From contig NZ_KB894586.1 in the NCBI RefSeq assembly GCF_000374545.1, positions 62,001 through 126,000 on the forward strand: DNA of 64,000 nt, read 5' to 3'. The notes below the pieces were generated by a model. The model worked only from the letters and a program-made list of their open reading frames with translations, was not told where the DNA came from and did no database searches. The position numbers were made by a program, and so were the translations under genes. Positions 254 through 35,117 of the stretch are shown piece by piece. This DNA comes from Anaeromusa acidaminophila DSM 3853. Its GTDB lineage: Bacteria > Bacillota > Negativicutes > Anaeromusales > Anaeromusaceae. Every line of letters starts with the position of its first letter. The stretch's first letter is position 1.

Positions 254-340
254 GCGGTCGTGGCGGAATTGGCAGACGCGCTAGACTCAGGATCTAGTGA
301 AGGCAACTTCATGGAGGTTCAAGTCCTCTCGACCGCACCA
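254..340 (+). tRNA. tRNA-Leu (anticodon CAG), copy 1
   Basis: An 87-nt class II tRNA with a 7-bp acceptor stem (GCGGTCG/CGACCGC), a long variable arm, a T arm containing GGTTCAAGTCC and an encoded CCA end. The anticodon stem CTAGA/TCTAG closes loop CTCAGGA, giving anticodon CAG (codon CUG). It is identical over its full length to the copies at 1532 and 1639. Confidence 0.97.
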
Positions 341-351
341 ATCCTAATTAT

Positions 352-437
352 GCGGTAGTGGCGGAATGGCAGACGCACCAGCTTGAGGGGCTGGCGGGGG
401 CAACCTCGTGATGGTTCAAATCCATTCTACCGCACCA
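352..437 (+). tRNA. tRNA-Leu (anticodon GAG), copy 1
   Basis: An 86-nt class II tRNA with encoded CCA. Stem CCAGC/GCTGG closes loop TTGAGGG, giving anticodon GAG (codons CUU/CUC). It starts 11 nt after the CAG tRNA, so the two are co-transcribed. It differs from the second GAG copy (1741) in the D arm, variable arm and T stem, with compensating changes in the T stem (ATGG/CCAT here against a GAGG/CCTC-type stem there). Confidence 0.96.
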
Positions 438-446
438 AAAAAAATG

Positions 447-475
447 AAGCCTGCAAAATATTGCAGGCTTTTTTT
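447..475 (+). terminator. Intrinsic terminator of the first tRNA array
   Basis: A perfect 10-bp stem (AAGCCTGCAA/TTGCAGGCTT) with loop AATA is followed directly by a T tract. It lies 9 nt past the CCA end of the GAG tRNA. Confidence 0.9.
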
Positions 476-523
476 GTTTTTGTATTTTGCAACATTAAAA
501 AGGAAGAATATTGCGAAATATTG

Positions 524-532
524 TGGTATACT
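524..532 (+). promoter_or_regulatory. Extended -10 promoter element of the chemoreceptor-like gene
   Basis: TGGTATACT matches the extended -10 form (TG-N-TATAAT-like) and lies 41 bases before the start codon. No good -35 is seen at the right distance, which is acceptable for an extended -10 promoter. Confidence 0.5.
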
Positions 533-573
533 GGCGATGTAAAAAACTATCTTAATAGAAAAGAGGTGCGATT

Positions 574-1422
574 ATGACGCAAAATAGTTTTTTTAAAACG
601 AATGAGGAAATTCTTGAAGCTTTTAAATTGGTATTACCGTATATGAATCGAATTGTTCGGGAAGATATGGCGGTTGGTTTGACAGACTGTAAAGAATACT
701 TATCCTATTACCGGGCGAAGGAGTTTGAATTGGATCTTCCTACCGGAAAACCTGTAAAGGGGATTGAAACGATTGAACGTTGCTTGGCTACCAGGACGGA
801 TACCCTCGACGATATTCCTCCTTCGGTTTACGGACGGCCGATAAAAACGATTTTTACGCCCATCTATGGGGTTAATGGCGAGGTAATTGGTACATTAAGT
901 TCAGGTATTGACTTTCAAAACAGTGTACAATTAGTTAAAACCATTGAAGAACTTGCAGCGAATACCACACAAGCCTCAGAAAGCATTGAACAGGTGGCGA
1001 GAAGTGTTGGCGAGCTAGCTAGGGCCGGACAAGCGACGATTGCGCAAGCCCAGTCGTTAGGCGAAAAAAATCGGCATACAGCCAGTATTTTGGAGTTCAT
1101 TCGGAATATAGCCGCGCAAACGAACTTGTTGGGGCTCAATGCGGCCATTGAAGCGGCTCGCGCCGGAGAACACGGACGCGGATTTGCAGTGGTTGCGGAG
1201 GAGGTGCGCAAGCTGGCGGATCAATCCAATGAGGCTGTAAAAAAGATTCAGGAAACGTTGCAGCAGGTTAACGGTGCAATTGTGGAAATTAATCAGTCCA
1301 TTGAAACTACCGGAGCAATTAGTGAGGAGCAGGCTGCGACAACCGAGGAAATTGCTGTCATTTTGCGGCAAGTGCATGAGAACATGAAAAATTTGGAGAC
1401 CTTTGTTGAGCGATATAAATAA
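574..1422 (+). CDS. Soluble methyl-accepting chemotaxis-like protein
   Basis: A 282-residue protein without any membrane segment. Residues about 10-120 form a small sensor-like domain (Cache/PAS-like by appearance, not assigned). The rest is an MCP signalling domain with the conserved hairpin tip: [20 protein letters not shown], then [18 protein letters not shown]. Such proteins pass a ligand or redox signal to CheA through CheW, here from the cytoplasm. The signalling domain is short compared with full receptors. An AGAGGTG ribosome site precedes the ATG. No che or flagellar genes are in the window, so its partner kinase is elsewhere. It sits alone between two tRNA-Leu arrays. Confidence 0.88.
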
Positions 1423-1459
1423 GTAGAGGGAATTGCTGTTTTCTTAGGCAAAGATTTTC

Positions 1460-1488
1460 TTGCATTGGCGCTAGGTCTCTGCTATAAT
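1460..1488 (+). promoter_or_regulatory. Sigma-A promoter of the second tRNA-Leu array
   Basis: TTGCAT at 1460-1465, a 17-base spacer and a perfect TATAAT at 1483-1488. The first tRNA of the array starts 43 bases downstream. Confidence 0.85.
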
Positions 1489-1531
1489 AGCCAACGTGGG
1501 TAAGCTGCTATTTGTAATGGCGGTTGGCTTT

Positions 1532-1618
1532 GCGGTCGTGGCGGAATTGGCAGACGCGCTAGACTCAGGATCTAGTGAAGGCAACTTCATGGAGGTTCAA
1601 GTCCTCTCGACCGCACCA
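1532..1618 (+). tRNA. tRNA-Leu (anticodon CAG), copy 2
   Basis: 87 nt, identical to copy 1 at 254-340, with loop CTCAGGA and encoded CCA. It is the first member of the second array. Confidence 0.97.
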
Positions 1619-1638
1619 AACTCAATAGAATCCCTTTC

Positions 1639-1725
1639 GCGGTCGTGGCGGAATTGGCAGACGCGCTAGACTCAGGATCTAGTGAAGGCAACTTCATGGA
1701 GGTTCAAGTCCTCTCGACCGCACCA
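1639..1725 (+). tRNA. tRNA-Leu (anticodon CAG), copy 3
   Basis: 87 nt, identical to the two other CAG copies and only 20 nt behind copy 2. This tandem duplication raises the dose of the CUG-reading tRNA. Confidence 0.97.
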
Positions 1726-1740
1726 ACTTTATAGATCTAT

Positions 1741-1826
1741 GCGGTAGTGGCGGAATGGCAGACGCGCCAGCTTGAGGGGCTGGTAGGGGCAACTCTGTGG
1801 AGGTTCGAGTCCTCTCTACCGCACCA
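1741..1826 (+). tRNA. tRNA-Leu (anticodon GAG), copy 2
   Basis: 86 nt with stem CCAGC/GCTGG around loop TTGAGGG and encoded CCA. It follows the third CAG copy by 15 nt. The acceptor stem equals that of the copy at 352, but the variable and T arms have diverged. Confidence 0.96.
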
Positions 1827-34008: not shown

Positions 34009-34359
34009 ATGCAGTTTCCGAGACAACAAGAAAGACAAATGCAGCTTACTGCAAAAACATTAGTTAAAGGGGATAATCGAATCTATCGGGTTCAAAATCC
34101 TTTTCGTACCGAATTTTCGTTGTCTGTCTATTTCTTTCTTAAATTTCATTTGTCTAAATCTATAAAAAAAGTATCCGAGGCGAACCCCAAGGCCAACATT
34201 CTTTTTGGAAGGATTGGCGGTTCCTGGTGGAAGCCGCAGTTCCATGTTATTATTGGCGGCAGAACGAAGAAAACGGTATTGGCTGCTGCCGAGATGCTGC
34301 AGAAAGAATTAAATGGCAAGAAAGATAAAAAAGAGGATAAAAAAGAAAACGCAAAATAA
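34009..34359 (+). CDS. Hypothetical protein with Lys/Glu-rich tail
   Basis: I do not recognise this 116-residue protein. It is soluble and basic, with a central part containing NPFRTEFSLSVYFFLKFHLS and FGRIGGSWWKPQFHVIIGG, and an end that is almost only Lys, Glu and Asp (KKDKKEDKKENAK). A strong AAAAAGGAGAG site precedes the ATG, and it starts 14 bases after the degenerate GGDEF gene, so the two are probably one operon. A terminator follows at once. Codon use looks like that of real genes. A role with the upstream sensor is inference only. Confidence 0.65.
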   Translation: MQFPRQQERQMQLTAKTLVKGDNRIYRVQNPFRTEFSLSVYFFLKFHLSKSIKKVSEANPKANILFGRIGGSWWKPQFHVIIGGRTKKTVLAAAEMLQKELNGKKDKKEDKKENAK

Positions 34360-34632
34360 AAAGTAAGCCGGCAGTGAACATACTGCCGGCTTACTTTTCT
34401 TATCCTGATTTCAGCCGCTTGGGAAGCACCATAAGCGTTTGCTTTTTGGATCTTTTCCCTGCAAGAATTTAACGGTTGCTTGCAAACGGCTCATACCATG
34501 CGTGGCTCGCCTTCTCTGCTGGTATGACGGCCTTACCTGCCGCTCAGGATGCAGAGATGCCGGACGAGAGAGCTGGAAGTGGACGATCTGATCCTCCATC
34601 CCAGTTTGCTGGAACCAAATGGTCCTCTTCTT
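34353..34632 (-). ncRNA. Candidate structured non-coding RNA, unknown class (6S-like rod)
   Basis: On the minus strand a promoter (TTGACT, 17 bases, TATTAT) is followed by about 230 bases without a credible gene, then a perfect 15-bp terminator with TTTATTTT. By eye the transcript folds into nested helices in the right order: 34608-34616 with 34407-34415 (8 of 9 pairs), 34599-34603 with 34420-34424, 34590-34594 with 34448-34452, 34550-34557 with 34456-34463 (8 pairs, one G-U), 34539-34542 with 34487-34490, and an apical 8-bp stem TCATACCA/TGGTATGA at 34520-34527 and 34491-34498. Paired ends and a long rod recall 6S RNA, but I see no sequence match to it, nor to RNase P, tmRNA, SRP RNA or a riboswitch known to me. 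Confidence 0.6.
34361..34399. terminator. Bidirectional terminator
   Basis: A perfect 15-bp stem AAGTAAGCCGGCAGT/ACTGCCGGCTTACTT with loop GAACAT. T-rich sequence follows on both strands (TTTTCTT on plus, TTTATTTT on minus). It ends the hypothetical gene at 34009 on plus and the candidate RNA on minus. Confidence 0.93.
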
Positions 34633-34638
34633 AGTTAA

Positions 34639-34667
34639 ATAATACTGCCGTTAAAAATAAAAGTCAA
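34639..34667 (-). promoter_or_regulatory. Sigma-A promoter of the minus-strand candidate RNA
   Basis: Read on the minus strand: TTGACT (34667-34662), exactly 17 bases, TATTAT (34644-34639). Predicted start near 34632. Confidence 0.75.
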
Positions 34668-34766: not shown

Positions 34767-34795
34767 TTGCAATTTTTTGTGTTATATGATATCCT
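34767..34795 (+). promoter_or_regulatory. Possible promoter of the 56-residue ORF
   Basis: TTGCAA (34767-34772), 17 bases, TATCCT (34790-34795); an alternative TATGAT lies at 34785-34790. It would give a leader of about 145 bases. Confidence 0.45.
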
Positions 34796-34801
34796 TAACA
34801 A

Positions 34802-34946
34802 GATCATTAGCAGGAATTTCCAAAAAACGTGAAGCAGATGCTGGAACTCTTCTCGTCGTGACTGGTAGCAATGTGAGATGGTCTCGGTAAAGAAAATGGT
34901 TTAGCCCGACCATGTTACCACAAGCACGCATAAAGGAGGAGAGAGA
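34802..34946 (+). promoter_or_regulatory. Structured leader before the small ORF
   Basis: Two stacked stems are visible: TGGTA/TACCA (34863-34867 with 34916-34920) and ATGGTC/GACCAT (34878-34883 with 34908-34913), closing a 24-nt loop with a possible TCGG/CCCG-type inner pairing. No T tract follows, so it is not a terminator. I cannot assign it to a known riboswitch. It could control translation of the small ORF just downstream. Confidence 0.4.
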
Positions 34947-35117
34947 ATGGATCATCGCATTCAACAAATGCAGCAGAAGTTAGCATTTTTGGGATACCGA
35001 CGCTTTCAGATTCAAAGAATCATGGAAGAAAGCAATGGCTCGCATGAACAGTTACTTTTGGATTTGCAAAAATATGAAGTTCTTGGCGCGGATTACGTGC
35101 AAGGCTACAGTAAATAA
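34947..35117 (+). CDS. Small hypothetical protein, 56 residues
   Basis: The ORF begins MDHRIQQMQQKLAFLGYRRF and ends in VQGYSK. It has a nearly ideal ribosome site (AAAGGAGGAGAG) 6-8 bases before the ATG and is closed by an intrinsic terminator, which makes it a real transcription unit despite its size. It is soluble, helical in appearance, Gln- and Leu-rich. I do not recognise the family. Neighbours give no direct hint: the candidate minus-strand RNA lies on one side and pfkA on the other. Confidence 0.7.
   Translation: MDHRIQQMQQKLAFLGYRRFQIQRIMEESNGSHEQLLLDLQKYEVLGADYVQGYSK

Follow-up and report, generated by a model that had tools for sequence, protein, structure and literature searches.

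We found a structured RNA gene on the minus strand of the window, i.e., the whole stretch of 64,000 nucleotides of Anaeromusa acidaminophila DSM 3853 that was analyzed, at a place where a gene caller would not show such a gene. It is nearly certain that the gene represents a real structured RNA family with the fold described below. Our main reading is that it is a free-standing noncoding RNA gene of approximately 275 nt, from a family outside Rfam, whose product, as we infer from its sequence, would act in trans, probably through binding to either a protein or a small ligand; we hold this statement as a whole to be true with a probability of roughly 55%. A sequence-only reading of the region had already proposed that a promoter and a terminator here frame a structured RNA from a family not yet described, and this is borne out by conservation, by compensatory changes in paralogues, by a separate promoter and terminator at every locus, and by no match in Rfam, whereas the fold offered with it was for the most part wrong and the 6S analogy is not supported. 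The gene is well supported and missing from Rfam; besides, it offers three kinds of loci for comparison, and its fold is defined precisely enough for probing. Narrow RNA families remain hard to find in genome-wide surveys because they have few representatives, as one such survey states (PMC11109978).

Transcription unit and conserved fold

The unit (34358-34667) consists of a promoter, a body of approximately 230 nt without a conserved reading frame, and a terminator (Table 1). The minus-strand promoter TTGACT-N17-TATTAT that had been read by eye was present, and the hexamers TTGACT and TATTCT were retained in three congeneric orthologues, in which sequence comparison showed a diverged spacer and diverged upstream DNA. 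A 17-nt spacer and 10 to 11 of the 12 consensus bases were found at each of the three kinds of loci, i.e., copy A (the locus in the window and its orthologues), copy B (a diverged paralogue), and copy C (a tandem pair, C1 and C2, in genome G134). In copies A, B, and C, the predicted start lies approximately 7 nt past the -10 box, at (A)AGAAGAGG or AGGAAGAGG. The terminator with its T run had also been recognized, but as a perfect hairpin of 15 bp; it comprises 18 pairs. Copies B and C have long perfect terminator hairpins as well, unrelated in sequence to the copy A terminator. At the sequence level, all loci thus carry the promoter and terminator of their own that a free-standing RNA requires. 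Folding against shuffled sequence, the check suggested earlier, gave z = -5.2 with the terminator and only -1.96 without it, and single-sequence folding is weak evidence for the RNA.

Table 1. Predicted features of the RNA gene (positions are those of the window)
Feature	Position	Strand	Description
Sigma-70-type promoter	34667-34639	minus	-35 TTGACT (34667-34662), 17-nt spacer, -10 TATTAT (34644-34639); 10/12 consensus positions
Predicted transcript, ~275 nt	34632-34358	minus	Likely +1 at 34631/34632; predicted 3' end in T run at 34358
P0, 5' hairpin domain	34630-34576	minus	GAAG/CTTC, GGAC/GTCC, ATTTG/CAGAT
PK2, outer pseudoknot helix	34568-34563 with 34511-34506	minus	CUCGUC with GGCGAG; 6-9 bp in all copies but A_G002
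PK1, inner pseudoknot helix	34556-34551 with 34519-34514	minus	CUCUGC with GCAGAG; 98% of cells paired
P1, long-range helix closing the junction	34550-34544 with 34408-34402	minus	AUCCUGA with UCAGGAU; 6/7 pairs invariant in 10 sequences
P2 hairpin	34543-34527	minus	GCGGC/GCCGU; 100% paired; G-C to A-U double change in copy B
P3 hairpin	34526-34492	minus	CAUACCA/UGGUAUG; 100% paired; A-U to G-C double change between copies
P4 stem	34491-34413	minus	AGCCGUU/AGCGGCU; variable branched interior, P4a (34483-34479/34465-34461) and distal arm
Terminator hairpin and T run	34399-34358	minus	18 bp; common to the convergent 116-aa gene ending at 34359

The predicted conserved fold is a 5' hairpin (P0) followed by helices P1 to P4, which are crossed by a pseudoknot (PK1 and PK2), almost without unpaired linkers. 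Indeed, zero unpaired bases separate PK1, P1, P2, and P3 in the sequence, and the same is true of P3 and P4; the sole junction strand is the 4 nt between P4 and P1, mostly GNAA. The 3' strands of the pseudoknot are contained in the P3 loop, and PK1, with CUCUGC just 5' of P1 and GCAGAG in that loop, crosses both P1 and P3. P0 is located at the start of each transcript, and it shows paired changes from GGAC/GTCC to GGGC/GCCC in copy B and from A-U to G-C in the orthologue of G002. PK2 is re-formed from other letters in each kind of copy, with AUCUCAUCC/GGAUGAGAU in B and CCCCGUUU/GGGCGGGG in C1 (a 1-nt register shift in both), and is imperfect only in A_G002, where two of its six pairs are broken. 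The outer pair of PK1 appears as C-G, U-A, or A-U, and its inner pair changes from C-G to U-A. Two-sided changes were also seen in four of the six counted pairs of P4. P1 hardly varies, and thus covariation is uninformative on this helix.

A junction was first proposed by RNAalifold from the four orthologues. When ten cores were aligned by MAFFT without structure and then submitted to RNAalifold, P1, P2, P3, and P4 were recovered. Of 310 pair cells in this structure-free alignment, 99.0% form pairs, pseudoknot included, versus 24 to 51% in slid-partner controls. Covariation, which had been named earlier as a check, was found: 8 of 31 pairs have two-sided changes (2 of them in the pseudoknot), and the two-sided-change cells number 27 against 10 in shuffles (0/500), counts in which the effectively independent lineages are four (A, B, C1, and C2) and a few compensatory events recur in several genomes. 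The invariant columns lie almost solely in the helices and the pseudoknot. Enforcing the conserved nested part gave +2 kcal/mol relative to the best nested fold, with the pseudoknot not yet counted.

One element of the earlier fold survives, namely, the apical stem of 8 bp, TCATACCA/TGGTATGA (34527-34520/34498-34491). This stem is real, and 7 of its pairs are conserved as P3. The 8-pair helix joining 34550-34557 to 34456-34463 is possible in the window's own sequence but was discarded because it is not conserved; according to the alignment, orthologues G001 and G003 do not retain its outer pairs, and the paralogues are unable to form it at all. The 34550-34556 side belongs instead to P1 and to the pseudoknot with 34514-34519. 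The two ends of the RNA, which nested helices had been supposed to bring together, are not mutually paired, and the 5' end forms a separate hairpin. In place of a rod with paired ends recalling 6S RNA, we thus obtained a pseudoknotted multihelix junction.

Occurrence of the family

A BLASTN search of 61 genomes, a check of the kind suggested earlier, detected the element at 87 to 90% identity in three other congeneric genomes and nowhere else; the matches in the 57 other genomes were short and attributable to chance. Loci L005 and L006 from the nucleotide search, which were inspected, do not have such an element. Core identity among the four congeneric genomes, one of which is catalogued under the name 'Negativicutes bacterium isolate INTA.CYC.032', was approximately 95%, versus 72% in the adjoining intergenic DNA.

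In a search of 301 genomes of the class, a covariance model based on the four congeneric orthologues detected copy B in all four congeneric genomes (56 to 63 bits; E, 1e-12 to 1e-15). It also detected a tandem pair in G134, which belongs to a different family within the class (scores of 70 and 60 bits; E, 6e-17 and 5e-14). A second, wider model built from all ten copies returned exactly the same ten sites in 381 genomes of the class, and in 399 genomes of the phylum it returned just the two copies of the own genome and one weak match within a protein gene. In the five host genomes, this model with lax filters found no third copy above 13 bits. When up to 3 mismatches were allowed, a degenerate pattern of 24 bases recovered the same ten sites, all at 0 mismatches, together with one chance site. 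Several weak covariance matches were rejected as members, including those in G275 and G586 (inside protein genes), those in G041 and G098 (at most 20 bits with the wider model and many pairs broken), and those in G301 and other genomes. Plasmid, phage, and viral collections yielded no copy. Within the genomes searched, approximately half of known species, the family is real and narrow, and it is confined to two lineages.

The two consecutive cores of G134 have a single promoter and a single 5' hairpin in common. The same stem, GATAATCCGC, occurs in the hairpin between these cores and in the final terminator (L037, 1463-1730, minus strand), a trace of tandem duplication. Direct repeats of the GAGUCA type, varying in number, are present in the tip of the 5' hairpin of copy B (L047, 1400-1480, plus strand; also L043, L044, and L046), and the length of copy B therefore differs between species.

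Comparison with known RNAs and possible function

In accord with the earlier impression that the RNA shows no apparent sequence similarity to 6S or another known class, no Rfam 15 covariance model (raiA, OLE, ROOL, GOLLD, HDV-like, tmRNA, RNase P, and SRP included) matched it in a cmscan of the window, the paralogue, and the G134 loci. Sub-threshold matches (Thr_leader and microRNA families) fell mainly on terminator hairpins or on DNA outside the RNA. For 6S RNA (RF00013), there was no match in the window at the gathering score or at E up to 10, and the genome's single regular 6S RNA lies elsewhere (G000:C10, 97 bits). Some Firmicutes carry two 6S paralogues. The new RNA is like 6S RNA in being free-standing and structured, in its size, and in having a housekeeping promoter and a terminator, but 6S RNA is a rod with a central bubble, whereas the new RNA is a pseudoknotted junction. 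It shares with raiA, OLE, ROOL, and GOLLD, whose functions are unknown or partly known, a free-standing, elaborate, and conserved character; it differs from all four in having no covariance-model match and in its confinement to two lineages, and it is smaller than OLE, ROOL, and GOLLD. The latter three occur as ornate RNA assemblies (PMC12286853). The Negativicutes motifs that a keyword search located in two structured-RNA surveys (gltD, ldh2, ilvD, potE, and SLH) are all described upstream of genes, and none of them resembles the new RNA (PMC8632094, PMC6429828). The same kind of search gave no mention of Negativicutes in a third genome-wide structured-RNA survey (PMC11109978), and a text search under the suspected genus names returned no paper on small RNAs there.

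In our main reading, the RNA would be transcribed independently from a housekeeping-type promoter, would fold into a 5' hairpin and a compact pseudoknotted junction (P1-P4, PK1, and PK2) ending in a long terminator hairpin, and would act in trans as a folded object, its nearly invariant P1-P2-P3-PK1 core probably binding a protein or a small ligand. Action in trans as a folded object is suggested because the invariant bases are almost all in the core, because there is no conserved single-stranded seed, and because no downstream gene is common. The shape of the RNA and the missing seed together would favor protein or ligand binding over mRNA pairing, since the copies have no seed in common. A riboswitch or cis-acting leader is unlikely, since the three loci share no downstream gene and the terminator directly follows the core.

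It is possible, although we think it rather unlikely, that the gene encodes a base-pairing sRNA, in which the core would be a scaffold for stability and the variable unpaired parts (the 5' hairpin tip or the P4 arm) would pair with mRNAs by way of Hfq. Hfq is encoded in G000, G001, and G134, the RNA has a Rho-independent end with a U tract, and the 5' domain of copy B contains repeated, poorly pairing segments of the GAGUCA type. However, no unpaired segment is kept across copies A, B, and C as a conserved seed would be, and the usual pairing sRNAs have a core that is less elaborate and less conserved than that of the new RNA. The compactness of the junction also raises the improbable case of a catalytic RNA, e.g., a ribozyme that cleaves itself and contains nested pseudoknots. 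Small ribozymes show this sort of geometry, in which helices cross in a junction that has no linkers. In the nested-pseudoknot topology of HDV-like ribozymes, a strand from upstream enters the junction by base pairing and thereby crosses P1, and the new RNA has this feature as well. It differs from them by an extra helix, P3, that crosses the pseudoknot and by matching no Rfam ribozyme family. Besides, the catalytic C of HDV-like ribozymes sits in the strand that corresponds to the P4-P1 strand, which here is 4 nt without a conserved C, and the gene continues to the terminator at every locus.

The convergent 116-aa gene overlaps with the terminator at its last codon, and both genes could use this terminator, which would suit a cis-acting element, i.e., antisense or terminator DNA for that gene. 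The RNA body, however, does not overlap with the 116-aa gene, and paralogues of the same fold adjoin wholly different genes; this very unlikely reading is largely refuted by copies B and C. We give equally little credence to a non-autonomous mobile or repeated element, to which the two loci per genome and the tandem pair in G134 might point, given that synteny is kept around copy A in four genomes and around copy B in both of those examined, that no transposase occurs among the neighbors examined, that plasmids, phages, and viral contigs are without a copy, and that the paired changes indicate selection at the RNA level. It is hardly to be expected, finally, that the locus encodes a small protein (in the 62-codon frame spanning 34411-34599) or a dual-function RNA comparable to Bacillus subtilis SR1. 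The frame persists in the A copies and, altered, in C1, but its length varies from 35 to 62 codons through frameshifts (35 to 46 codons in the congeneric relatives, via small indels), its start has no Shine-Dalgarno sequence, and the 62-codon frame is absent in the paralogues, the corresponding frame in copy B ending after 5 codons. A Pfam search with it did not give the family hit that would have spoken for a protein. No credible ORF was found in the approximately 230 bases, in line with the earlier reading. SR1 is a CcpN-controlled dual-function small RNA, and copy B lies just 3' of ccpN-ppsR-ppdK, a link seen at one locus only; the new RNA has no conserved small ORF and differs from SR1 in structure and size.

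Neighboring genes

The neighbors of copy A are the 116-aa gene and a 56-aa gene with pfkA, those of copy B are ccpN-ppsR-ppdK and an ankyrin gene, and those of the G134 pair are genes for an M16 peptidase and an aspartase-like lyase. The ccpN-ppsR-ppdK set, directly 3' of which copy B stands (L065, 5870-10433, plus strand), belongs to gluconeogenic control, and copy A adjoins pfkA. We may consider a new, compact double-pseudoknot RNA class with its own ligand-binding or ribonucleoprotein function. In view of these positions and of a pyrophosphate-dependent phosphofructokinase gene a few genes away from the G134 pair, this function might be connected with the decision between breaking down and synthesizing sugars. 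This reading as a whole is doubtful, and the sugar-metabolism neighbors of copies A and B are suggestive, but there are only three loci in all.

The 116-aa gene (34009-34359, plus strand), convergent with the RNA, has no Pfam or NCBIfam match, and a scan of 84,980 species gave only one relative, in a congeneric genome. The leader (34795-34946, plus strand) of the 56-aa gene (34947-35117, plus strand), which lies upstream of pfkA, is 96 to 98% identical in the four congeneric genomes, an identity above that of the surrounding coding sequence, and is genus-restricted among 61 genomes searched. It has no Rfam match and holds a 34-codon frame whose ATG falls within the -10 box. The leader may represent another conserved RNA element besides the one described above. 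Pairing of the new RNA with this leader was considered and rejected, as the duplex energy was ordinary (10 of 100 shuffles were as low). Farther away in the window (254-1823, plus strand), there are five tRNA genes of 83 to 84 nt in two groups, three of which score identically (55.8 bits) and look like repeated copies.
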